A DNA stretch of 64,000 bases from an uncultured Halomonas sp. (GTDB lineage Bacteria; Pseudomonadota; Gammaproteobacteria; Pseudomonadales; Halomonadaceae), in the NCBI RefSeq assembly GCF_946887195.1, contig NZ_CAMPKE010000006.1:1-64000 (forward strand), given 5' to 3'. The translations under genes were made by a program, and so were the position numbers. The notes beneath the pieces were generated by a model. It was not told the origin of the DNA. It saw only the letters and a program-made list of their open reading frames with translations, and searched no databases. The stretch's first letter is position 1. The number at the start of each line of letters is the position of its first letter. Positions 9,778-31,429 of the stretch are shown piece after piece.

Positions 9778-10719
9778 ATGGAGGCGATGCAAGAGACTCA
9801 AGACCTGTTTCCGACCCGGCTGGAACGCAAGCTGGGCATGTTCGAGCGCATCGACCCGGTCGTGCACAGTGAAGGCTCGCAGCGCAGCGATGGGCCGCTT
9901 AGCGAATCGCAGGTCAACGAGTTCGAGGCCAAGGGCTTCCTCTCTTTCGAATCGTTCTTCGATAAGGAGGAAATGGACGCGTTTATCGAGGAGCTGCGGG
10001 ACTACGAAGACGACGACGATCTGAAGTCTTCCGAAGGCACCGTGCTGGAGCCGGGCAAGCAGGAGATCCGCTCCATTTTCGGCATTCATGAAGTCTCGCA
10101 GCGCTTCAGCCGCCTGACCCGCGACCCGCGTCTGCTCAAGATGGTCCAGCAGTTGCTCGGCGGCGATGCCTACATTCACCAGTCACGCATCAATTACAAG
10201 CCGGGCTTCAAGGGTAAGGGTTTCGACTGGCACTCCGATTTCGAAACCTGGCATAGCGAGGATGGCATGCCACGCATGCGTTCGTTGAGCTGTTCGATCA
10301 TTCTCACTGACAATGGCGAGTTCAACGGCCCATTGATGCTGATTCCCGGTTCGCACAATTTCTTCATCCCCTGTGTGGGTCGTACGCCCGAAAACAATTA
10401 CAAGGAATCGCTGAAGAGCCAGGAAATCGGTGTGCCGGATGCCAGAAGCCTGACTAAATTGATGACCGAGAACGGTATCGAAGCCCCCAAGGGGCCATCG
10501 GGCTCGCTGATCATGTTCGAATGCAACACTCTGCATGGCTCGAACGTGAACATGTCCTGCTGGCCGCGTAGCAATCTCTTCTTCGTCTACAACAGTGTCG
10601 AGAATACGCTGCACAATCCTTACTGCGGGAATCGGCCACGACCGGAGTTCCTGGCTAACCGGAAGGATTGGAGTCCGCTCAAGGCTTTCGAGAAGACGGA
10701 GGCAACGGAGAGCGCTTGA
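9778..10719 (+). CDS. ectD: Ectoine hydroxylase EctD
   Basis: EctD is a non-haem Fe(II)/2-oxoglutarate dioxygenase that converts ectoine to 5-hydroxyectoine. The 313-residue product carries the iron triad as FDWHSDFETWH (H152, D154) and TLHGSNVN (H253), in the spacing known for EctD. The family signature ISRINY-type strand (HQSRINYKPG) and MLIPGSHNFFIPCVG are also present. A strong AAGGAGGAG precedes the ATG. It stands alone, away from ectABC, as is usual in Halomonadaceae. This is one of the main clues to the organism's halophilic life. Expression would be expected to rise with salt or temperature, but no specific promoter could be assigned. Confidence 0.96.
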   Translation: MEAMQETQDLFPTRLERKLGMFERIDPVVHSEGSQRSDGPLSESQVNEFEAKGFLSFESFFDKEEMDAFIEELRDYEDDDDLKSSEGTVLEPGKQEIRSIFGIHEVSQRFSRLTRDPRLLKMVQQLLGGDAYIHQSRINYKPGFKGKGFDWHSDFETWHSEDGMPRMRSLSCSIILTDNGEFNGPLMLIPGSHNFFIPCVGRTPENNYKESLKSQEIGVPDARSLTKLMTENGIEAPKGPSGSLIMFECNTLHGSNVNMSCWPRSNLFFVYNSVENTLHNPYCGNRPRPEFLANRKDWSPLKAFEKTEATESA

Positions 10720-20044: not shown

Positions 20045-20189
20045 GTCAGGTTTCCCTCCCCGAGATGAGTGAATGGCCGGCCTTCATTCCGGCATACGTG
20101 GATCGATGCGCTTCCTGGCATCGGATAGGGTTGGGTCACACGATAGTGCCATAGAGTAGTTTATGTATTCCCCAAGGGAGATAGCGATC

Positions 20190-20780
20190 ATGACCGAACC
20201 TGGCTCGCGTTTTCAAACCGCCATCGAGCGCCTGGATGCCCTGCACGGCGAGGATCCGCGCCAGGAGAACATCGATGGCCGGGAAATTCCTTACGAGTTG
20301 CTTTATGCCCGGCGCATGGGCGAGTGGCTCGCACGCGTGGCGCCAAATGCCGGCGAAGCATTGCGATTGGCAGTGTGCGCTCAGCACTTACAGCGCTGGC
20401 GTATCCCGCGTGACGACTATCCGCGAGACCGTCCCGGTTATCTGGCCTGGCGCCGCGAATTGGGTCGGCTGCAGGCCGAGCAGGCCAGTATCGTACTGCG
20501 CGAGGCGGGTTACGACGCCGACCTTCGCGAGCACGTGGCTGGCCTGATCCGCAAGGAGCGGCTGCGTAGCGATGCCGATGCCCAGGCGCTGGAAGACACC
20601 GCCTGCCTGGTGTTCCTGGAGCATTACCTGGATGACTTCGCCGCTGGCCACGACGACGCGAAACTCATGCGCATCGTGCGCAAGACCTGGAACAAGATGT
20701 CGCCGCGCGGCCAGGAGCTGGCCGCGACGATCCCCCTTTCCGCCGATACTCGAATATTGGTCCAGAGAGCGCTGGCCTGA
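20190..20780 (+). CDS. DUF4202 family protein
   Basis: This is a 196-residue soluble protein with histidine and aspartate residues spread through a helical fold (AVCAQHLQRWRIPRDDYPRDRPGYLAWR, then LEDTACLVFLEHYLDDF, HDDAKLMRIVRKTWNKMS). The sequence fits the DUF4202 family, whose members resemble HD-type metal-dependent proteins; no function is established. A frame extension starts at 20163, but MTEPGSRFQTAIERLD fits the family start and AAGGGAGA lies before it. Confidence 0.75.
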   Translation: MTEPGSRFQTAIERLDALHGEDPRQENIDGREIPYELLYARRMGEWLARVAPNAGEALRLAVCAQHLQRWRIPRDDYPRDRPGYLAWRRELGRLQAEQASIVLREAGYDADLREHVAGLIRKERLRSDADAQALEDTACLVFLEHYLDDFAAGHDDAKLMRIVRKTWNKMSPRGQELAATIPLSADTRILVQRALA

Positions 20781-20940
20781 TTGCTCCCGTATAGTCGAAG
20801 GAAGATCTCCCTTTGACACGTCCACCGCTGAGTCTAACTTGAGTAGTGCAGCCCACGGGCTGCGCAAAACGTGACGGCGGTGGGCGGTCGAGGCGAGGAC
20901 GATTCGCCGGCCCGCCAGGCTAATGATTACAGGAGGTAAC

Positions 20941-21396
20941 ATGCCGATGAACGCCATCGAGTTGCTCACGAAGGATCACGACAAGGTTCGCGATCTGCTC
21001 AAACAATTGGTGAACACCACGGAAAGGGCCGAGAAGAAGCGTACCGAACTGATTGCCAAGCTCGAGAAGGAAGTAAAGGTTCATACCCAGATCGAAGAGG
21101 AGATCTTCTATCCTGCCTTCAAGGAGAGCAATGGCAAGGATAACGACAAGATGTACTACGAGGCCTGCGAAGAGCATCGCGCCGTGGAGGATCTCGTCCT
21201 GCCGGATCTCAAGAAGGCGAACCCCGGGGGCACCGAATTCTCGGGCCGGGCGAAGGTACTCAAGGAACTTCTCGAGCATCACGCCGACGAAGAGGAAGAG
21301 GAGATGTTCGCTCAGGCGCGCAAGACGTTGTCCGAAAGCCAGCTCAATGAACTCGGCGACAAGATGGCGGCGCGCAAGAAGGAGCTGACGTCGTAG
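20941..21396 (+). CDS. Hemerythrin HHE-domain protein
   Basis: The 151-residue protein has the hemerythrin-like cation-binding pattern: LLTKDHDKVRDLLKQ, KVHTQIEEEIFYPAF, EACEEHRAVEDLV and LEHHADEEEEEMF supply the His and Glu ligands of a di-iron site across four helices. AGGAGGTAAC lies directly before the ATG at 20941; a longer frame from 20923 would put the ribosome site inside the gene. Roles for such proteins include oxygen or iron sensing and repair of iron centres; which applies here is unknown. Confidence 0.88.
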   Translation: MPMNAIELLTKDHDKVRDLLKQLVNTTERAEKKRTELIAKLEKEVKVHTQIEEEIFYPAFKESNGKDNDKMYYEACEEHRAVEDLVLPDLKKANPGGTEFSGRAKVLKELLEHHADEEEEEMFAQARKTLSESQLNELGDKMAARKKELTS

Positions 21397-21431
21397 TCGG
21401 CGACGCCGGCATGACTCCCACATAGGGCAGG

Positions 21432-21462
21432 GCGCCCCGGTCGCCATGCGGCTCCGGGGTGC
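21432..21462 (+). terminator. Possible terminator after the hemerythrin gene
   Basis: GCGCCCCGG and CCGGGGTGC pair as a 9-base stem (one G-T pair) around a 13-base loop, 36 bases beyond the hemerythrin stop. The following bases are only weakly T-rich. Confidence 0.4.
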
Positions 21463-21502
21463 GTTGCGTTCTGCCTGTTCATTCACCCGACAAGAGACAT
21501 CG

Positions 21503-23086
21503 ATGTTCGGTTATCCGCGGTTTCTCTACTTCTCGTATCTCGCCCTCATGCTCGTTGTCGGCATCCTGCTGGCGATCTGGGCGCCGCTCTGGCTGCTGGT
21601 ATGGTCGTTCTTCGCCCTGCTGGCCGTAATCGGTGCCCGGGATCTGCGCTCGCGCCACAACGTGCTGCGCAACTACCCGGTGCTGGGACATCTGCGCTAT
21701 ATGCTCGAGTTCATCCGGCCAGAGCTGCGCCAGTACTTCTTCGAAACCGAGCAGAGCGGCCGACCGTTCAATCGCGAGCAGCGTCGAATCGTGCATGCCC
21801 GGGCCAACGGCTTGCCGGATACCGCACCATTCGGCACGCGGCGGGATGTCGAGGACGCCGGCTTCAATTTCATCCAGCACTCCATCGCGCCTAAGAAGAT
21901 CGATCCGAGTTGGGCGCGCATTAAGGTCGGTGGACCGCAGTGCACGGCCCCCTATGATTCGTCCCGCCTGAACATTTCGGCGATGAGCTTTGGCGCGCTG
22001 TCGGGCAATGCGGTACTGGCGATGAACAAGGGCGCGAAACTCGGTAATTTCGCCCAGGATACCGGCGAGGGCGCGATCAGCCCCTACCATCGTGAACACG
22101 GCGGCGACATCATCTGGGAAATCGCCAGCGGTTACTTCGGATGTCGCCACGATGATGGCAATTTCGACCCCGACGAATTTGCCAGAAAAGCCTGCACCGA
22201 GCAGGTCAAGATGATCGAGATCAAGCTTTCGCAGGGCGCCAAACCCGGCCATGGTGGACTATTGCCAGGCTCCAAGGTCAACGCTGAAATTGCCTCGACC
22301 CGTGAAATCGAACCGGGCAAGGATTGCCTGTCGCCTGCCATGCATCCCGAGTTCGATTCCCCTATCGGGCTGCTGCGGTTCGTGCAACGGCTACGCGAGT
22401 TGTGTGGCGGCAAGCCGGTCGGCTTCAAGCTCTGCCTGGGTAAGCGCGATGAATTCATGGGCATCTGCAAGGCCATGCTCGAAACCGGCATTCAGCCGGA
22501 TTTCATCACCGTTGATGGTGCCGAAGGCGGCACTGGCGCGGCACCCGCGGAGTTTTCCGATTTCGTCGGTACGTATATCAATGAAGCGCTGCCATTCGTA
22601 CACAACTGCCTGATCGGTATCGGCAAGCGCGACGAAATACGCATTATCGCCAGCGGCAAGGTCGCCATGGGGTTCGATATGATCACCAAGATTTCGCTAG
22701 GCGCCGACATGTGCAACGCGGCGCGCGCCTTCATGTTTTCGGTGGGCTGTATTCAGGCACAACGTTGCCACACCAATACCTGCCCAACCGGTGTCGCGAC
22801 CCAGGACCCGGCCCGGACCAAGGCGCTGGATGTCGATTCCAAGGCGCAATGGGTGCGTAATTTCCACGACGCCACCATCGCATCGTTTCTGGATATCATG
22901 GGTGCGCTGGGTGTCGACAGCCCCGATGAACTGGGTCCGGAGCGTATTTATCACCGGCCCAGTCACGGCCCCGCGTGTACTTATCGCGATTTGCATCCCC
23001 AGGTGGGTGCCGGCGACTTCCTGGCTGGCAGAGTTCCCGACGCTTACGCCGAGGACTGGGCACACGCCAGCGCCCAGCGCTTTTAA
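21503..23086 (+). CDS. FMN-binding glutamate synthase family protein, copy 1
   Basis: Two hydrophobic segments at the N-terminus (residues ~8-48) anchor this 527-residue protein to the membrane. The rest is the glutamate-synthase central/FMN barrel: LNISAMSFGALSGNAV, DTGEGAISPYHR, KLSQGAKPGHGGLLPG, FITVDGAEGGTGAAP, and a cysteine cluster CIQAQRCHTNTCPTGVATQ like the 3Fe-4S loop of GltB. It has no glutaminase domain and no GltD-type partner beside it, so the amino donor and true reaction are unclear. A homologue of the same design lies at 29750-31429. The start MFGYPRFLYF at 21503 is preferred to the longer frame from 21446. Confidence 0.88.
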   Translation: MFGYPRFLYFSYLALMLVVGILLAIWAPLWLLVWSFFALLAVIGARDLRSRHNVLRNYPVLGHLRYMLEFIRPELRQYFFETEQSGRPFNREQRRIVHARANGLPDTAPFGTRRDVEDAGFNFIQHSIAPKKIDPSWARIKVGGPQCTAPYDSSRLNISAMSFGALSGNAVLAMNKGAKLGNFAQDTGEGAISPYHREHGGDIIWEIASGYFGCRHDDGNFDPDEFARKACTEQVKMIEIKLSQGAKPGHGGLLPGSKVNAEIASTREIEPGKDCLSPAMHPEFDSPIGLLRFVQRLRELCGGKPVGFKLCLGKRDEFMGICKAMLETGIQPDFITVDGAEGGTGAAPAEFSDFVGTYINEALPFVHNCLIGIGKRDEIRIIASGKVAMGFDMITKISLGADMCNAARAFMFSVGCIQAQRCHTNTCPTGVATQDPARTKALDVDSKAQWVRNFHDATIASFLDIMGALGVDSPDELGPERIYHRPSHGPACTYRDLHPQVGAGDFLAGRVPDAYAEDWAHASAQRF

Positions 23087-23103
23087 TGCCGCACCGCACT
23101 CCC

Positions 23104-23146
23104 GGGCGATAAGCGGCGCGAGGTTCGATCGCCCAGCGGCTTTTTT
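23104..23146 (+). terminator. Probable terminator after glutamate-synthase-like gene 1
   Basis: GGGCGAT and ATCGCCC are perfect 7-base arms around a 17-base interior, followed within six bases by a run of six Ts (23141-23146). It would separate this gene from the EctC-like operon. Confidence 0.55.
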
Positions 23147-23278
23147 CGGCGCGGAATCGATTGAAAGCCGGTACTAGCTGGCTAACGAAATTCCCGGGTA
23201 CTAGGCTGAAATAGACGGATAGCCAAGCAAGTCGCCGGCAGTCCGCTTGGCACGACATCGAAGCAAAAGGGAGGAAAC

Positions 23279-23680
23279 ATGATCATACGCGATCGCAAGG
23301 ACGCGGAAGCCAATGAAATCAACGAGGAAAAGTGGATCAGTCGTCGCTACACACTTCGTGCGGATGGCATGGGTCACTCGGTGCATGAAACCGTCATCAA
23401 GCCGGGTCAGGAAATCCATATGTGGTACAAGAACCACAAGGAGACCGTGCTGTGCATCGAAGGCGAGGGCCAGATCGAGGATCTCACCGAAGGTGGCAAA
23501 TGGAAGCTGACCCCGGGGGTGCTCTACGCGCTCGATAAGCACCAGCAACATATTCTCAGCAGCGAAAACGGCATGACCGTGATTTGCGTGTTTTCGCCCT
23601 CACTGGTGGGGCCGGAAGATCATGACGAGCAGGGCAGCTACCCCTTGCTCGACGACGATGGCACGGTGATCAAGAGATGA
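23279..23680 (+). CDS. Ectoine synthase-like (EctC family) cupin enzyme
   Basis: This 133-residue single-domain cupin aligns with EctC, which closes the ectoine ring by dehydration. Counting residues by hand against the Paenibacillus lautus enzyme, every known site is kept at a constant offset of two: iron ligands E55, Y83 and H91; substrate-site residues T38, Y50, H53, F105, E113 and H115. The segments WYKNHKETVLCIEGEG and CVFSPSLVGPEDH show this best. The protein is nevertheless clearly divergent from standard EctC, carries an extended C-terminus (PLLDDDGTVIKR), and is not next to ectA or ectB. The strong site GGGAGGAAAC precedes the ATG. It overlaps the aminotransferase gene by four bases (ATGA), so the two are probably co-translated and act in one pathway. 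Substrate unknown. Confidence 0.85.
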   Translation: MIIRDRKDAEANEINEEKWISRRYTLRADGMGHSVHETVIKPGQEIHMWYKNHKETVLCIEGEGQIEDLTEGGKWKLTPGVLYALDKHQQHILSSENGMTVICVFSPSLVGPEDHDEQGSYPLLDDDGTVIKR

Positions 23681-24885
23681 GTATCACACGTCACGACGAC
23701 TACCATTTTCGCATCGCGAGACGCGTGGAAGACATTTCCGCCTCGTCGATATTCCGCATCAATCGGCGCGCCCACGAGTTGATCGAGCAAGGGTACGATA
23801 TCATGCGCCTCGATGCCGGCGAGCCCGACTTCGATACGCCCGAGCCGATCATCGATGCCGCCAAGGCGGCACTCGATGCAGGATATACCCGCTACACGCC
23901 AATCGGTGGCTTGCCTGGCTTGAAGGAAGCGATCCGCCAAAAGTTCAAGCGCGACAATGCCCTGCATTACAACGAGGATGAAATCCTGGTGACCTGCGGT
24001 GCCAAGCAGGCATTGTTCGATGCTTGCATGACACTGTTGCAGCCCATGGACGAGGCCGTGATTCCGACGCCCCATTGGGGCAGCTATCCGGCCATGGTCA
24101 AGCTTACCTGGGCGCGGATCGTCGAAGCGCGCACCACCTATGACAATGGCTTCATACTGACCCCCGACGAACTCGATGCCAGCCTGAGTTCGCGGACCCG
24201 CGTGGTGTTTCTCAACACGCCCACCAATCCGACCGGTCAGGTCTACGACCGTGAAGCACTATCCGCGCTGGGCGATGTGCTGCTGGATTACCCGGATGTT
24301 TTCGTGCTCTCGGACGATATCTACGAGCACCTGCGCTACACCGGCGAGCCTTATTGCAACATTCTGAATGTATGCCCATCGCTGAAAGACCGCACACTGG
24401 CGATCAATGGGGTTTCCAAGGCCTATGCCATGACTGGCTGGCGCGTGGGTTTCGCCGCCGGGCCGGCCCACTTGATCGCCGAAATGCAGAAATTGCAGGG
24501 CCAGAGTACCTCGCACACCGCCGCGGTGTCGCAGAAGGCCGCCGAAGCGGCATTGAACGGCGGTCTGGATACGGTACACACCATGGTCGATCAATTCGCC
24601 GCACGCGCCCGCAAGGTCGAGCAAGGGCTGGCCAGGATCGATAGGATCGATTGTCTCCCGGCCCAGGGCAGCTTCTATTGCCTGCCGGACTTCTCCCGCG
24701 TGATCGAATCGCTCGACGGCGTCGATGACGATCAGCAACTCGGCGATTGGCTACTCGATGAGCTAGGCATTGCCATGGTGCCGGGGTCGAGCTTTGGCGC
24801 GCCGGGTCATATGCGCCTATCGTTCGCCGCCGCCGAAGAAACGCTCGACGAGGGACTGAAACGCTTACAGGATGCGTTCGGCTAG
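23677..24885 (+). CDS. Class I/II pyridoxal-phosphate aminotransferase
   Basis: This 402-residue fold-type I enzyme resembles aspartate/aromatic aminotransferases of the AspC-gamma group. The N-terminal glycine strand is LDAGEPDFDTPEP; PLP contacts lie in CGAKQALFDAC, NTPTNPTGQVYDREAL and SDDIYEHLRY; the Schiff-base lysine is K248 in NGVSKAYAMTGWRVG; and a C-terminal arginine in HMRLSFA would bind the substrate carboxylate. The ATG lies within the stop of the EctC-like gene (ATGA). Coupling suggests that it makes or uses the amino substrate of the EctC-like cyclase. It differs from EctB, the diaminobutyrate aminotransferase of the ectoine pathway, which belongs to the class III family. Confidence 0.9.
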   Translation: MSITRHDDYHFRIARRVEDISASSIFRINRRAHELIEQGYDIMRLDAGEPDFDTPEPIIDAAKAALDAGYTRYTPIGGLPGLKEAIRQKFKRDNALHYNEDEILVTCGAKQALFDACMTLLQPMDEAVIPTPHWGSYPAMVKLTWARIVEARTTYDNGFILTPDELDASLSSRTRVVFLNTPTNPTGQVYDREALSALGDVLLDYPDVFVLSDDIYEHLRYTGEPYCNILNVCPSLKDRTLAINGVSKAYAMTGWRVGFAAGPAHLIAEMQKLQGQSTSHTAAVSQKAAEAALNGGLDTVHTMVDQFAARARKVEQGLARIDRIDCLPAQGSFYCLPDFSRVIESLDGVDDDQQLGDWLLDELGIAMVPGSSFGAPGHMRLSFAAAEETLDEGLKRLQDAFG

Positions 24886-24998
24886 GCGCTCTCACGGTAT
24901 CGCAATTCGCCCCTCGATAATGCCGCGGCCAGCTCGGTGCCGATGTAACTGCCGGTTATGAGTTGGGCTTTCGTGCTATTGGTCGTATTCCGTCTTCC

Positions 24999-26249
24999 TC
25001 AATCGCGTGCCACGACGTTGCGAATGCGAAAACGATCCTTGGGCGCCGCCGGTAGGTCGGATAGATCCACCGCCAGGTTCTGCCGTGGCACGTCGTATGT
25101 CATCGCGGACGTGAGCTTGTCGATGGCGATCTCGATCAATGCGACGGCGACGCCTTCGCCGGGACAACGGTGACCGTTGTAGAGATCGCCGCCACCCTGG
25201 GGAATGAACGCATAGCCGGCATCGTTGCCGGAGGCGAAGCGTTCGGGGCGGAAGGCATCGGGCGCTTCCCAGCTTCGTGGATCGTGATTGGTGCCATAGA
25301 TGTCCAGCAGCACCCAGTCGCCATGCGCGAAGCGGTGATCGCGCCACTCGAACGGCTCGCGAACGCGGCCGCCAATCATCGGAAAGAACGGGTAGAAGCG
25401 GCGAACTTCCTGCGCGAATGCACGCCTGGCTGCCTCGCCCCCGCCATGTAGCGACTCGCGCGCCTGCGGGTAGTCATGAAGCGCCAGCGCGGCATAAGCG
25501 ATGAAACGGCCGACCGCCACGATCGGGCGCAGCACATTGAGCAACTCGACGGCGGCGTCGTTCTCATCCAGCCACCGGCCTTGCCTATCGCGATGATAGG
25601 CGATCAGCGCCGCCGGGCTGCCGTCGGCCGGTAATAGCTCGTCCTTGCGAATCTGCCGGATGATCTCCTCCGCCCAGCGCTCGGTGTGGCGGCGCAGCCA
25701 TAACCCGCGCCAGCTACGCGGGCCGACGGATGCCGCGCCATCCAGCATCGCGGCGAATTCACGCGTTCGTTTTTGTGCCTGCGTGGCGTTCAGCGGTACA
25801 TCGGCCCATGCGCAGGCGATGCGACAGAGCAGCTCGCGCGCGGCATTCATCAGCACGATCTCATCGTCGCGCTGCCACCGCTCGATGGCTTGCTGCCACT
25901 GGCTTGTTGCGATCGTGTGCAAACGCTGCATCTGCTCGGGGGTCATCATCTCCATGAACAGTTGCTTGCGATGACGATGTGCGTCGCCATCGAGTGGCTG
26001 CACGCTGCCTTTGTCCTGCAGTAGCCGCATCGTGATGGGCGGCATCGCCCCTTGCCGGGTGAATCGACCGGGATGGTAGAACATGCGCGCGGCATCTTCG
26101 CCGAGTACGCAATACGCCGTTTTCAGCATCAATCGGGTGGTGAAGATATCGGATCGATAACGCGCGCAACGGCTGGATATGAAGGTATAACCCTCCTTCA
26201 ATAGCGCCAGCGAATTATCCAGCCCAGGGTCGTGGGGAATGCCTGCCAT
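24999..26249 (-). CDS. Cytochrome P450 peroxygenase, CYP152 family
   Basis: CYP152 enzymes use hydrogen peroxide directly to hydroxylate fatty acids. The 416-residue product matches the Bacillus P450-BSbeta group in length and motifs: NVLRPIVAVGRF with the substrate-carboxylate-binding Arg-Pro, EVRRFYPFFP, and the haem loop IPQGGGDLYNGHRCPGEG with the axial Cys. At the position that is His85 in the decarboxylase OleT, this protein has Gln (GSVQPLDGDAHRHRK), as in the hydroxylases, so hydroxylation rather than alkene formation is predicted. The frame extends upstream, but AAGGAGG before the ATG at 26249 and the start MAGIPHDPGLDNSLALL fix the start. Confidence 0.9.
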   Translation of the reverse strand: MAGIPHDPGLDNSLALLKEGYTFISSRCARYRSDIFTTRLMLKTAYCVLGEDAARMFYHPGRFTRQGAMPPITMRLLQDKGSVQPLDGDAHRHRKQLFMEMMTPEQMQRLHTIATSQWQQAIERWQRDDEIVLMNAARELLCRIACAWADVPLNATQAQKRTREFAAMLDGAASVGPRSWRGLWLRRHTERWAEEIIRQIRKDELLPADGSPAALIAYHRDRQGRWLDENDAAVELLNVLRPIVAVGRFIAYAALALHDYPQARESLHGGGEAARRAFAQEVRRFYPFFPMIGGRVREPFEWRDHRFAHGDWVLLDIYGTNHDPRSWEAPDAFRPERFASGNDAGYAFIPQGGGDLYNGHRCPGEGVAVALIEIAIDKLTSAMTYDVPRQNLAVDLSDLPAAPKDRFRIRNVVARD

Positions 26250-26604
26250 GACGTCGGGCCTCCTTGTCCGAACGTAAAACGACCGATCACTCAGCACTCA
26301 GCACTCAGCACTCAGCGTAGATCAACGGCGGGGCTTACCGGTAATGGAAAGCAGCAAACGTAATGTCTTGTTGCCAGCGGCCAAAACGGCACCCTCATCG
26401 CCTGACGTCATAGCAACCCTGAACTATGGTGATTTCAGAAAGCTTCTAGGTCTCATCGCCGCTTTCGATATTCGCTAGGGCGGTGATGGCGTAACGGGCA
26501 GGGATGGTCCCGTTCTATCCTGATGGCGCTAGCATTACGGCATCTGGACTCCGATCAGGGCGCTTCCCTGGCATAGGGCTTGAATCGGCTACAAGGAGGT
26601 AGGT
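26250..26604. promoter_or_regulatory. Divergent promoter region between the P450 and alcohol dehydrogenase genes
   Basis: This 355-base gap contains no gene. It must carry the leftward P450 promoter (with the ACTCAGC repeat) and the rightward dehydrogenase promoter. No consensus sigma-70 pair was convincing on either side. Confidence 0.5.
26289..26316. repeat. Four perfect copies of a 7-base tandem repeat
   Basis: ACTCAGC is repeated four times without error, 40-67 bases upstream of the P450 ATG, in its promoter or leader. Such heptamer tracts can change length by slippage. Confidence 0.9.
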
Positions 26605-27774
26605 ATGAAAGCGCTCTGTTGGCACGGGAAGACGGACGTTCGCTACGACACGGTCCCCGATCCCACTATCGAGCACCCACGCGATGCGATCGTCAAAGTC
26701 AGTTGCTGCGCGATCTGCGGCTCCGATCTGCACCTTTACGATCACGTCATCCCGACCATGGAATCCGGCGATGTGCTCGGTCACGAATTCATGGGCGAGG
26801 TGGTCGAGGTCGGCGCTGAAAACAAGGCGCTCAAAGTCGGCGATCGCATCGTCGTACCGTTTACCATCATCTGCGGTGAATGCGATCAGTGCCGGCGTGG
26901 CAATTTCTCGGCTTGCGAACGTTCCAACCGCAATAAAGCCCTGGCCGACAAGGCCTTCGGCCACGCTGGCGCCGGCCTGTTCGGCTATTCCCATCTAACC
27001 GGGGGCTATGCGGGCGGACAGGCCGAATATGTGCGCGTTCCCTTCGCCGACGCGACGCACGTCAAAGTGCCGGACAGCCTGACCGATGAGCAGGTGCTGT
27101 TCCTCGGCGATATCTTCCCGACGGGCTGGCAGGCCGTCGTGCAGTGCGATATTCAGCCGACCGACACGGTGGTGATCTGGGGCGCGGGGCCGGTCGGCCA
27201 GTTCTGCGTGCGTAGCGCGGTGCTGCTCGGCGCACGCCAGATCATCGTGATCGACAACGTGCCGGAGCGCCTCTCGATGGCCGAAGCCGGTGGCGCGACG
27301 ACCATCAACTTCGATGACGAAAGCGTACTCGAACGGCTGAACGATCTGACTGCCGGCAAAGGGCCCGAGAAATGCATCGACGCGGTCGGTCTCGAGGCGC
27401 ATGCCACCCGCTCGCTCGACTCCATCTACGATCGCATCAAGCAGGCGGCGATGCTCGAAACCGACCGAGCGCACGTGCTTCGCGAGATGATTTACGTCTG
27501 TCGCCCCGCGGGCGTGCTATCGATTCCCGGCGTTTATGGTGGCTTGGCCGACAAGATCCCGGTTGGCGCGCTGATGAACAAGGGCCTGACGGTGCGCACC
27601 GGCCAGACCCACGTGAACCGCTGGACCAGCGATCTGCTACACCGCATCGAAGGCGGCCAGATCGACCCTTCGTTCGTCATCACCCACAGCGTCGGCCTCG
27701 ATCAAGGGCCTGAAATGTACAAGACCTTTCGCGACAAGCAGGACGGCTGCGTCAAGGTCATCCTGAAACCCTGA
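26605..27774 (+). CDS. Zinc-dependent alcohol dehydrogenase (formaldehyde dehydrogenase-like)
   Basis: This 389-residue medium-chain dehydrogenase has the catalytic zinc region [12 protein letters not shown] and [12 protein letters not shown], the structural zinc loop [15 protein letters not shown], and the NAD-binding [11 protein letters not shown]. The long insertion after the structural zinc ([31 protein letters not shown]) is typical of the glutathione-independent formaldehyde dehydrogenase-like group. AAGGAGGTAGGT precedes the ATG. The substrate cannot be told from sequence. The small membrane-like gene at 27796 follows after 21 bases with its own strong ribosome site, so an operon is likely. 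Confidence 0.9.
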
Positions 27775-27795
27775 GCATAGCGACAAGGAGGAGCT

Positions 27796-28320
27796 ATGAG
27801 CCATAACAGCATGAGTCATTCGATGAGCGCCAATGATCGGCTCGCTCGCGGACTTGGCTGGTTCAGCCTCGGTCTCGGTCTATTCGAATTGTTTGCGCCA
27901 CGCAAACTGACCGGCGCGCTCGGCATGCATGGCAAGGAAACGCTGGTGCGTGCCTACGGCGCGCGTGAAATCGTCGCGGGGATCGGTGCGCTCTCGGACA
28001 ATCCAACGCCGGCAATCTGGAGCCGGGTCGGCGGCGACGCGATGGATCTCGCGACGCTGACGCCCGCGCTCAGCAACGACAATCCCAAGAAGCGCAATGC
28101 CTGCATTGCGGTGGGCATCTTGCTCGGAGCAGCGGCGATCGATCTCTACTGTGCCCAGGCGCTCGGTCGCAGGCACGAGCGATTGGCGGGGCCCACGCCG
28201 GATTACAGCGACCGCAGCGGTTTCTCGCGCTCGGCCGCTGCCATGCGGGGTGCGGCGAGCGATTTCGAAACGCCCAGGGAGATGCGTCACGAGCTACCCA
28301 GTCCACGCTACGAAGGCTAA
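27796..28320 (+). CDS. Hypothetical protein with hydrophobic segments
   Basis: The 174-residue product has a Ser/His/Met-rich N-terminus, a hydrophobic segment at about 18-36 (GLGWFSLGLGLFELFAP), a conserved-looking REIVAGIGAL stretch, and another hydrophobic segment near 103-120 (CIAVGILLGAAAIDLYCAQAL), then a polar tail. The pattern (LGLFELFAP ... GAREIVAGIGAL) is shared with small membrane proteins often fused to, or encoded near, cyclase/dehydrase (SRPBCC) proteins. Function unknown. It is probably co-transcribed with the alcohol dehydrogenase. Confidence 0.7.
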   Translation: MSHNSMSHSMSANDRLARGLGWFSLGLGLFELFAPRKLTGALGMHGKETLVRAYGAREIVAGIGALSDNPTPAIWSRVGGDAMDLATLTPALSNDNPKKRNACIAVGILLGAAAIDLYCAQALGRRHERLAGPTPDYSDRSGFSRSAAAMRGAASDFETPREMRHELPSPRYEG

Positions 28321-28409
28321 ACGTATGGGCGGCGGCCAAGTTGATAGCGCGCTGCGAAGACCTGCCGCTGGGCACGTCCCTGCCGCTGGACAGGTTCTGG
28401 TGTGTGTCC

Positions 28410-29660
28410 TTACTTCGCGTATGACTCGGATACGGCTTGGCGTGAGCCGCGTTCGATATCGGGCAACCACAGCGCGACGATACCCAGCAGGGGCAGAAAC
28501 GCGCATAGCTGGTAAACGACGACGATGCTGGTCGTATCCGCCAGATAGCCGAGTACCGCGGCGCCGATGCCGCCCATGCCGAAGGCGAAACCGAAGAACA
28601 GCCCGGCGATCAGGCCGACCCTGCCCGGCACCAGTTCCTGCGCGTAGACCACGATGGCGGAAAACGCCGAAGCCAGTACCAGCCCGATGATCACCACCAG
28701 TACGCCGGTCCAGAACAGATCGGCATGGGGTAGTAGTAGCGTGAAAGGCGCTACGCCGAGAATCGAGCCCCAGATCACGACCTTGCGTCCGATACGATCG
28801 CCGATAGGGCCGCCAGCCACGGTTCCCACGGCTACTGAAGCCAGAAACAGGAACAGATAGAGCTGGGCGCTCTGTACCGATAACGCGAAGCGCTCGATGA
28901 GATAGAACGTGAAATAGCTGCTCAGGCTGGCCAGGTAGAAATACTTCGAAAAGATCAGCATGCCGAGGAGACCGAGGGTGACGAGCACCCGGCGACGGCT
29001 CAGCGCAACGAGATCGGCGCCCTGGCGCGGCTTGCGAACCAGCAGCGCCTGGTTGCCGGCATACCAGCGTCCGATCTGAAACAGCACCGCGATGCCGATC
29101 AGCGCCGCCAGCGAGAACCAGGCCACGCTGCCCTGGCCGTGAGGAATGATCAGCAGTGCCGCCAACAAAGGCCCGAGTGCCGAGCCGACATTGCCGCCCA
29201 CCTGAAACAGCGACTGCGCGAGCCCATGGCGGGAGCCCGATGCCATGCGTGCCACTCGCGACGCCTCGGGATGAAAGATCGACGAACCGGTGCCGACCAG
29301 CACGGCGGCGAGCAGCAGGTAGAGATAGGAGGGCGCTACCGACAGTAGCAACAGGCCGGTGAGTGTGAAGCCCATGCCAATGGCCAGCGAATACGGCAAC
29401 GGGCGTTTGTCGGTATACAGGCCGACCCAGGGCTGCAGCAGTGACGCGGCGAGCTGATAGGTCAGCGTGATCAACCCGATCTGCGCGAAACTCAGCTCGA
29501 AGGTGCCCTTCAGCATCGGATAGATGGCCAGCAGCACCGACTGGATCATGTCGTTCATCATGTGCGCGACACTGATGCCGCCGAGTACCTTGAACGAGGT
29601 CGTGGCGCCAGGGGAGCCTGCGGGGCTGGCAGTGGCCTGCGATGTCGGGGCGGTCTTCAT
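28410..29660 (-). CDS. fsr: MFS exporter, fosmidomycin-resistance (Fsr) type
   Basis: The 416-residue, 12-TM protein begins with a polar stretch and then VLGGISVAHMMNDMIQSVLLAIYPMLK, the signature start of the Fsr branch of the major facilitator family. Other family motifs are GLYTDKRPLPYSLAIGMG in loop 2-3, GTGSSIFHPEASRVARMASG and GPIGDRIGRKVV in loop 8-9. It is expected to pump small toxic compounds out of the cell; fosmidomycin is only the known substrate of the E. coli member. It faces gene 27796 tail to tail. Confidence 0.88.
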   Translation of the reverse strand: MKTAPTSQATASPAGSPGATTSFKVLGGISVAHMMNDMIQSVLLAIYPMLKGTFELSFAQIGLITLTYQLAASLLQPWVGLYTDKRPLPYSLAIGMGFTLTGLLLLSVAPSYLYLLLAAVLVGTGSSIFHPEASRVARMASGSRHGLAQSLFQVGGNVGSALGPLLAALLIIPHGQGSVAWFSLAALIGIAVLFQIGRWYAGNQALLVRKPRQGADLVALSRRRVLVTLGLLGMLIFSKYFYLASLSSYFTFYLIERFALSVQSAQLYLFLFLASVAVGTVAGGPIGDRIGRKVVIWGSILGVAPFTLLLPHADLFWTGVLVVIIGLVLASAFSAIVVYAQELVPGRVGLIAGLFFGFAFGMGGIGAAVLGYLADTTSIVVVYQLCAFLPLLGIVALWLPDIERGSRQAVSESYAK

Positions 29661-29749
29661 GAATTGGCGCCTGATGCAGCGATCGATGTTCCCATACTAG
29701 CGTGAATCGCGCTTGCGGGAACGCCGAACCTCATGCGCACGCCCTGTTT

Positions 29750-31429
29750 TCATATCAGCTTGCTCGCCTTGAGCGCGGTGACCGAGGCGGGGGCATGAAA
29801 GGAGTCGGCCCGCGCATTATGCCAATAATTGCGAAACACCACATGCGAGGGCGTGCCGTTCAATAGCTCGCCTGGCTCGAGGAATGCAAACAGCTCGGCA
29901 AAGGACTGTATCTCGGTTCTCGAAACACGTCGGAGGACATGCTCCGGCCCCAGTTCGGCGGTGCTCTTGAGTCCTGCCGCGGCGAGCATTTCGGCCAGCG
30001 CCTCGAGCGTATTGGCGTGGAAATGGTAGACGCGCTGGCTCTTGTCGGCGACATCGAGTTTCTTGCCGCGTCGCGTGTCCTGGGTTGCCACACCGCTAGG
30101 GCAGCGATCGGTATGACAGGTTCGCGCCTGGATGCAGCCCAACGCGAACATGTAACCCCGCGCGGCATTGCACCAATCGGCGCCTAGCGCAATGGTCCGT
30201 GCGATATCGTATGCCGTAACGATCTTGCCGGCGGCACCAATCAGGATCCGCTCGCGCAAATTAGTGCCTACCAGCGTGTTGTGAACCAGCAGTAGCGCTT
30301 CGGTCAGCGGCATGCCCAGCCGGTTGATGAACTCCAGCGGCGCGGCGCCGGTGCCACCCTCACCGCCATCGACGACGATAAAATCGGGCCGCTCATCGCT
30401 TTCGAGCATGGCCTTGACCAAGCCGAACCACTCCCAAGGGTGACCGATGGCCAGTTTGATACCCACCGGCTTGCCCCCCGATAGCTCGCGCAGCCGGGCG
30501 ATGAACGCCATCATCTCGAGCGGCGTCGTAAAGGCCGAATGCGCATAGGGCGAGATGACATCCTCGCCCACTGGCACGCCTCGCGTCATGGCAATCTCGG
30601 GGGTCACCTTGGCACCGGGCAGAATGCCGCCATGGCCGGGCTTGGCGCCCTGCGACAGTTTGATCTCGATCATCTTGACTTGCTCGAGCGTCGCCCCGGC
30701 GATGAAGCGCTCCTCGCTGAAAGAGCCATCCTCATTGCGGCAACCGAAATAGCCCGAACCGATCTCCCAGACCAGATCGCCACCTTGGCGATGGTAAGGG
30801 GAAATCGAGCCTTCTCCCGTGTCGTGATAGAAGTTGCCGAGCCTGGCGCCAGCGTTCAATGCGCTGATCGCGTTGGCCGATAGCGAGCCGAAGCTCATCG
30901 CCGAAATATTGAATACGCTAGCCGAATAGGGCTTGGCGCGGTCTGCGCCGATGGTGATGCGAAAGTCATGCGAGACGATACGTTCCGGCATCAGCGATGG
31001 GCTCAGCCATTCATAGCCTTCGGCGTACATATCGTGGATCGAGCCGAAGGGCTTCTTATCGAGCGTATTCTTGGCGCGCTGATAGATTATCGAACGCTGC
31101 TCCCGCGAAAACGGCCGCTCTTCGGTATCCGACTGGATGAAGTACTGGCGAATCTCCGGGCCGATCGACTCCAGACCATAGCGAAAGTGCGCCAGAATCG
31201 GGTAGTTGCGACTCACCGTGCGCCGGCGTTGCAGCATATCGTAAGTGCCCAGCGCCACCAGCAGGGCGAACCCCAACACTGCCCAGCCCCAATCGGCATC
31301 GAAAACCAGGCCCAGCAGCGATAGCGCAAGCCCAGCCAGGCTGGCGAAGTAGACGCAATAACGCAGCGGCACCCGCGATACACGAAGCGAGGCGGCGGAA
31401 AGTCTGGAAATGCCATGTAGATCGATCAT
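29750..31429 (-). CDS. FMN-binding glutamate synthase family protein, copy 2
   Basis: This is a 559-residue paralogue of the protein at 21503. It has the same two N-terminal hydrophobic segments (CVYFASLAGLALSLLGLVF and GWAVLGFALLVALGTYDML), then RNYPILAHFRYGLESIGPEIRQYF, FNISAMSFGSLSANAI, DTGEGSISPYHRQ, LSQGAKPGHGGILPG, FIVVDGGEGGTGAAP and the cysteine cluster CIQARTCHTDRCPSGVATQ. It differs mainly in a longer N-terminus and a longer tail. No glutaminase domain or reductase subunit is beside it. AGAGGCCTCC lies before the ATG. Physiological reaction unknown. Confidence 0.88.
   Translation of the reverse strand: MIDLHGISRLSAASLRVSRVPLRYCVYFASLAGLALSLLGLVFDADWGWAVLGFALLVALGTYDMLQRRRTVSRNYPILAHFRYGLESIGPEIRQYFIQSDTEERPFSREQRSIIYQRAKNTLDKKPFGSIHDMYAEGYEWLSPSLMPERIVSHDFRITIGADRAKPYSASVFNISAMSFGSLSANAISALNAGARLGNFYHDTGEGSISPYHRQGGDLVWEIGSGYFGCRNEDGSFSEERFIAGATLEQVKMIEIKLSQGAKPGHGGILPGAKVTPEIAMTRGVPVGEDVISPYAHSAFTTPLEMMAFIARLRELSGGKPVGIKLAIGHPWEWFGLVKAMLESDERPDFIVVDGGEGGTGAAPLEFINRLGMPLTEALLLVHNTLVGTNLRERILIGAAGKIVTAYDIARTIALGADWCNAARGYMFALGCIQARTCHTDRCPSGVATQDTRRGKKLDVADKSQRVYHFHANTLEALAEMLAAAGLKSTAELGPEHVLRRVSRTEIQSFAELFAFLEPGELLNGTPSHVVFRNYWHNARADSFHAPASVTALKASKLI

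Follow-up and report, generated by a model that had tools for sequence, protein, structure and literature searches.

An EctC-family cupin encoded with a class I/II aminotransferase outside ectABC belongs to a separate lineage most often accompanied by an amidase

The locus described here raises the question of what an ectoine-synthase-type cupin does when it is encoded apart from ectABC and overlaps the gene of an aminotransferase. Enzymes of the EctC family use a bound metal to close or open a cyclic amidine (PMC6344544), and the function of solitary EctCs is called unresolved in the accessible text of both PMC5924519 and PMC6344544. The former, a review, listed 11 genomes in which a full ect set is joined by one orphan ectC, and warns against taking ectC by itself as a marker of ectoine synthesis. 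The window (the whole 64 kb stretch of DNA that was analysed) probably comes from a salt-tolerant bacterium. Its cupin and the relatives of this cupin are referred to as EctC2, the aminotransferase as AT, and positions are collected in table 1.

Both open reading frames of the original prediction were recovered at their positions, as was the 4-nt ATGA in which the stop codon of EctC2 overlaps the start codon of AT, an arrangement by which the two are likely to be translationally coupled. Assignment of the cupin to the EctC family was borne out by PF06339 (157.4 bits, cut-off 27) and by the ectoine synthase model PRK13290 (154.3, cut-off 128), and the protein has an EctC-type cupin fold. On alignment with P. 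lautus EctC, all nine metal- and substrate-site residues compared earlier were found to be kept (T38, Y50, H53, E55, Y83, H91, F105, E113 and H115), and W19, S21 and R23 were retained likewise. The constant offset of two given for these residues holds up to a one-residue gap near position 70 and drops to one beyond it, where Y83, H91, F105, E113 and H115 correspond to Y84, H92, F106, E114 and H116. The P. lautus metal ligands Glu57, Tyr84 and His92 are E55, Y83 and H91 in the window protein, and five of the six P. lautus substrate residues (Trp21, Arg25, Asn38, Thr40, Tyr52 and Glu57) are identical. The sixth, Asn38, absent from the earlier list, is His36 here; His is likewise found at this position in 89% of 83 ectB-linked EctCs. 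As judged from the alignment, the active site of the window protein is apparently intact.

Table 1. Positions and strands of the features (window coordinates; for Salinisphaera, those of the loci named).
Feature	Position	Strand	Basis
EctD ectoine hydroxylase, other ectoine gene of the window	9778..10719	+	TIGR02408 358.9 bits, cut-off 336.5; signature motif
FMN glutamate-synthase-like protein, stand-alone PF01645 domain, 546 aa	21446..23086	+	PF01645 280 bits
GGGAGG, Shine-Dalgarno-like, 4 nt before first ATG of EctC2	23269..23274	+	read directly
EctC2, EctC-family cupin (Fe-dependent cyclic-amidine synthase type), 133 aa	23279..23680	+	
ATGA overlap, EctC2 stop/AT start, 4 nt	23677..23680	+	read directly
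AT, class I/II PLP aminotransferase, aspartate-aminotransferase type, 402 aa	23677..24885	+	PF00155 228.9 bits, cut-off 19.7
Salinisphaera third EctC copy, L111	3696-5375	minus	
Salinisphaera third EctC copy, L112	5001-6683	plus	
Salinisphaera third EctC copy, L113	3693-5375	minus	

AT was confirmed as a class I/II aminotransferase of a family other than EctB by its PF00155 score, and an EctB query gave no match in the whole window. EctB resembles AT in being a PLP aminotransferase encoded beside an EctC gene, and differs from it in being a class III aminotransferase. The best NCBIfam model for AT was PRK06107 aspartate transaminase (399.4 bits, short of the equivalog cut-off of 617), and its closest solved relatives were 8wkj and the Rhizobium enzymes AatA/AatB (6f77 and 6f35), to which it is alike in family and overall sequence. 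K248, which we take to be the PLP lysine, lies in an SKAYAMTGWR motif common to these three structures. Among the matches listed, 52 proteins at 59% identity or more make up a subfamily, the next match being at 53%. AT differs from class I/II aspartate aminotransferases in its score below the equivalog cut-off, in its own subfamily and in its coupling to EctC2.

Nine proteins were scanned from 20163 to 31429, and neither EctA nor EctB was among them, in line with the prediction that no ectA or ectB is adjacent. The glutamate-synthase-like gene was located just upstream of EctC2 as described (gap 192 nt), and ectD was located elsewhere in the window. A second stand-alone FMN glutamate-synthase-like gene (29750-31429, minus) is ~50% identical to the copy preceding EctC2. 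The P450 at 24999-26297 (minus), directly after AT on the opposite strand, is near the CYP152 fatty-acid peroxygenase CypC (522 bits, cut-off 600), and a dehydrogenase is also encoded in the region around EctC2. The hemerythrin-domain protein at 20923-21396 was placed in the PA2171 family of ribosome-binding persister proteins (222 over a cut-off of 190), which points to a stress-gene region in the window.

Relatives were collected by protein search (56) and by a genome scan taking the best 80 of 132 relatives. Besides the window, 33 EctC2 loci were obtained (L001-L033), with an identity to the window protein of 74-84% in L001-L032 and 58% in L033. In a tree of 112 EctC sequences (135 columns, quick method with SH-aLRT and no bootstrap), 32 EctC2 rows made up one side of a branch with support of 92 (94 with the more distant L035), and the 32 rows labelled ectABC, one of them (L088) without ectB nearby, fell outside it. 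The earlier view that the protein is set apart from ectABC EctCs (PF06339; P. lautus 5onm, S. alaskensis 5bxx) was upheld for those sampled, EctC2 lying on a separate branch and, in the window, outside an ect cluster. A larger branch of 42 rows (SH-aLRT 88) united EctC2 and L035 with nine solitary EctC rows, mostly amidase-linked, from Rhizobium, Brucella tritici, Komagataeibacter, Shinella, P. protegens, Burkholderia and Methylocapsa.

Residues were compared across 32 EctC2, 9 solitary and 83 ectB-linked rows. R25, T40, Y52, H55, E57, Y84, H92, F106, E114 and H116 (P. lautus numbering) were invariant in the EctC2 rows. Unlike ectABC EctC, 78% of the EctC2 rows carry Phe for Trp21 (the window protein keeps Trp), and all carry His for Phe35. 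Trp21 is needed for normal activity of the P. lautus enzyme, whose W21A variant had 9.7% activity (PMC6344544).

EctC2 occurs in marine and halophilic Gamma- and Alphaproteobacteria. In the set of 34 genomes (33 with EctC2 loci and one with L035), at least two EctC genes were present in 33, and another, ectB-linked EctC copy in 32. The exceptions were the Marinimicrobium genome (G001), whose other EctC copy had no ectB within about 4 kb, and a MAG (G033) with a single EctC in the order AT-EctC2-TPP enzyme, which as a MAG may be incomplete. Since a separate ectB-linked EctC is nearly always present, EctC2 is an extra enzyme and not a displaced ectC. Like the solitary EctCs of Czech et al. 2018, it is encoded outside ectAB and has a conserved active site; unlike them, it mostly accompanies an ectB-linked EctC in the same genome, and it is unassigned among the six groups of the review. 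Between alpha- and gammaproteobacterial hosts (20 genomes), identity was 81% for EctC2, 73% for the amidase described below and 50% for ectABC EctC; the first against the last points to horizontal spread or stronger constraint. Within the GTDB family of Modicisalibacter, EctC2 was found in 16 of 275 genomes (E below 1e-60). One genome (G342) had four EctC matches, two of them EctC2-like (L181 and L182); one EctC2-like copy lies by the amidase with a stop reported in frame, and L181 is without any usual partner.

The commonest gene partner of EctC2 among its relatives is an amidase, which was not found within the 64 kb window. It was present in 22 of the 33 EctC2 loci (L003 being cut off upstream) and adjacent in 20 of the 32 close loci, 17-135 nt before EctC2; in L035 it overlaps EctC by 4 nt. 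The one copy scanned (L002) belongs to PRK06169 of the amidase signature family (611.8 bits over 506). An orthologue at 72% identity or more was found in 31 of 35 genomes, with one at 61% in G034; the genomes without a close orthologue were G001 (best 42%), G033 and the MAG G003. Within the Modicisalibacter family the amidase, at 72% or more, was present in each of the 16 EctC2 genomes vs 91 of the 259 others (Fisher p 1.3e-7, uncorrected for kinship). Among these 16 genomes, an EctC2 copy was next to the amidase in 14 and to the glutamate-synthase-like gene in two (G005 and G012), and to AT in none, by which a conserved EctC-aminotransferase pair across Halomonadaceae was ruled out in the 275-genome family search.

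Co-divergence of EctC2 and the amidase was considered and set aside: the Mantel r was 0.65, yet the amidase tracked ectABC EctC more closely (r 0.84), so a single shared history of transfer is unsupported. The amidase of Halomonas litopenaei and H. salina is grouped with gabD and gabT, which looks catabolic; of the two pairs, the one scanned (L192) exceeded the NCBI cut-offs and that of L185 shares 99% identity with it. A general tie of the amidase to GABA catabolism appears weak, gabD and gabT being adjacent in two close species and a gabD-like gene in a third. Neither gene was found beside the amidase in 18 amidase loci from one family's genomes without EctC2, and the amidase neighbours in these 18 loci differed between groups.

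AT was adjacent to EctC2 in two of the 33 other loci, those of Marinimicrobium (L001), with an identical 4-nt overlap, and of a Planctomycetota MAG (L033), in reversed order. That MAG differs from the Planctomycetota surveyed in PMC13342039, where ectA and ectB lay beside ectC in 23/23 ectC-bearing genomes. A relative of the glutamate-synthase-like gene was present in seven of the 33 loci (with a 4-nt overlap with EctC2 in L005 and L012) and a TPP enzyme in five, PRK08273 scoring above its cut-off in L001 and L033, both of which were scanned with NCBIfam. Across the 35 genomes, an AT orthologue at 52% identity or more was found only in G001 (73%) and G033 (52%), all others having 49% or less. 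Both AT-bearing genomes are without a close amidase orthologue (p 0.0018 with G003 left out), an exclusion that rests on two genomes. Two further AT-EctC2 pairs are likely, the EctC2 and AT matches sharing the same longest-contig sizes (113,158 and 7,824 bases).

The AT lineage also occurs by itself. It was found (E up to 1e-145) in two genomes of a 390-genome order search, G001 itself and G804, and in 8 of 163 genomes of the family of G804. In these eight loci AT follows the TPP enzyme in four and the glutamate-synthase-like gene in one, and no intact EctC2 was found within 1.5 kb of AT. AT may therefore serve those enzymes and belong first to that set, with EctC2 optional. At L231 (near 2721-2780, minus), an in-frame internal deletion has left nothing of EctC2 but the first and last codons, and the remnant still ends at the AT start; there the coupling has outlived the enzyme. 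The EctC-aminotransferase pair consequently did not survive as a general rule, given its two other loci in 33, the amidase as the usual partner and the eight AT loci without intact EctC2.

In the solitary clade allied to EctC2, seven of nine genes are preceded by an amidase of a second lineage, and transporter parts accompany six of these seven. The order on the Rhizobium plasmid is a divergent gene of the PLP-aminotransferase family, which we read as a MocR-type regulator, followed by ehuBCDA, amidase, EctC (4-nt overlap), oxidoreductase and RidA. Pseudomonas-type and Rhizobiaceae-type searches, kept outside the tree, gave 43 loci from 51 matches listed. The amidase was directly upstream in two, both of them seeds (L237 and L250), ectB was present in 20, and 21 had neither, one of these solitary loci having an amidase-like frame downstream. 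The 21 loci rule out the amidase as partner of all solitary EctCs. Solitary Pseudomonas-type loci (L239-L249) had an acyl-CoA-dehydrogenase/HsaA-like flavoprotein upstream in 7/11 and an MFS transporter downstream in 10/11, both family names being taken from one locus (L245), and the arrangement resembles that of a small natural-product cluster. A solitary EctC of a Sinorhizobium mexicanum plasmid (L135, 4501-6908) is flanked by a purD-annotated gene and a GNAT gene in the vicinity of a polyketide synthase, and an ectB gene follows about 6 kb further on.

A search of published titles and abstracts, covering sources other than subscription journals and preprints, found none linking ectC to an amidase or a class I/II aminotransferase, and the word 'amidase' has 0 occurrences in the accessible text of PMC6344544 and PMC5924519.

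As to function, the original prediction had taken cyclisation of glutamine to ADPC by solitary EctCs as established. The enzyme described in the accessible text of PMC5924519 is instead H. elongata EctC, which carries out this reaction with very low efficiency and with the equilibrium far toward glutamine, and ADPC formation was discarded as an established solitary-EctC reaction. The reading preferred here, tentatively, is that EctC2 is an intact sister lineage of ectoine synthase for accessory or salvage ring closure, served by the amidase or by AT. The sequence comparisons behind it are the apparently intact site, the separate lineage, the co-presence of an ectB-linked EctC, the conserved amidase and the occurrence of AT in two genomes without a close amidase. 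EctC2 would have spread horizontally, mostly into bacteria that already had an ectB-linked EctC. A metal ion held by Glu55, Tyr83 and His91 would polarise the amide carbonyl of the substrate, probably an amino-amide near N-gamma-acetyl-diaminobutyrate, and the alpha-amine of the same molecule would attack this carbonyl to give a cyclic amidine. The partner would free that alpha-amine, the amidase of most relatives by acyl removal and the window AT by transaminating a 2-oxo acid. The two may fill one step: in the open amino-amide, either enzyme could act on the alpha-amine or on the acyl group, exposing or removing it. EctC2 and its partner would supply ectoine or a near analogue under stress, by an accessory or salvage path. 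The forward direction is preferred because ring closure is favoured, the equilibrium of the N-gamma-ADABA reaction lying on the ectoine side (PMC6344544), and because most hosts have an ectB-linked EctC. Against this salvage reading stand the replacement of Trp21 by Phe in most EctC2 rows, the eight AT loci without intact EctC2, the amidase in genomes without EctC2 (91 of 259), the gabD/gabT-linked amidase, and L231, which keeps AT and not EctC2. Of the interpretation proposed for this locus, the apparently intact site, the separation from the ectABC EctCs sampled and the extra enzyme are supported, and the AT pair as a rule is not; a new compatible solute or signal from EctC2 is possible.

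The transporter- and gabDT-linked relatives leave room for the reverse direction, which we consider rather unlikely. EctC2 would then open a cyclic amidine, either ectoine or a five-membered analogue for which hydrolysis is favoured, and the amidase or AT would pull the reaction by destroying the open amino-amide, which would make the set a route of degradation or metabolite repair alongside DoeA/DoeB. This is in keeping with the Rhizobium plasmid, where the EhuBCDA-annotated transporter, the putative regulator and RidA surround an EctC overlapping the amidase, with the amidase and transporter parts of the allied clade, and with the gabD- and gabT-linked orthologues of the two Halomonas species. 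The TPP enzyme with AT likewise resembles transaminase-decarboxylase catabolism, as in AruH/AruI. H. elongata EctC hydrolyses homoectoine (PMC6344544), but its hydrolysis of ectoine is reported as negligible (PMC5924519); moreover, no Ehu-type transporter part lay beside EctC2 in the 16-genome family sample (at least 1.5 kb on each side), and standing ring opening would waste ectoine in ectoine-making cells. Also rather doubtful is that EctC2 defines a second cyclic-amidine pathway distinct in substrate and product, with amidase and AT as interchangeable partners, and that the transporter-amidase-EctC logic makes one solitary clade of plant and soil bacteria an uptake-and-conversion system for an amide-containing compound; the 43 loci, which did not enlarge the amidase-linked solitary clade, make this slightly less likely.

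It is unlikely that EctC2 serves as a second ectoine synthase for the product of EctA, perhaps at another salt concentration, with AT supplying aspartate for precursors. All catalytic residues are retained, an ectB-linked EctC is nearly always at hand, AT is nearest to aspartate aminotransferases, and a solitary EctC of P. syringae yielded ectoine in an H. elongata ectC mutant (PMC5924519). Such a synthase would however leave the amidase unexplained, the changes at Trp21 and Phe35 suggest an altered pocket, AT falls short of the PRK06107 cut-off, and in the possibly incomplete MAG G033 EctC2 is the sole EctC. More improbable still is that the neighbours are a shuffling set of stress genes without joint action, EctC2 and AT sharing a transcript by chance. 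EctC2, the glutamate-synthase-like gene, the TPP enzyme, AT and the amidase do recur in varied combinations and chromosomal sites, and the window region has the persister-type protein, the CYP152-like P450 and the dehydrogenase; yet AT and EctC2 are adjacent again in Marinimicrobium and, reversed, in the Planctomycetota MAG, and the amidase is adjacent at unrelated sites in two EctC lineages.

A conserved lineage beside a normal EctC, with an amidase or AT, gives a testable lead, namely which amide these partners have in common. The swap between an amide-cutting enzyme and an aminotransferase hints at an unstudied side route in salt-protectant chemistry. A product of EctC2 other than ectoine would be a new protectant; a backward-running EctC2 would mean a new route of ectoine turnover, useful to industrial producers of ectoine, which are related to Halomonas. 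The lineage also supports the warning of the review against ectC as a lone marker (PMC5924519).

Third EctC copies in three Salinisphaera genomes were about 560-aa proteins starting with an EctC domain (table 1). The one scanned (L112) has an ATP-grasp domain (PF13535) after the EctC domain, and the metal ligand His92 appears to be replaced in these copies.
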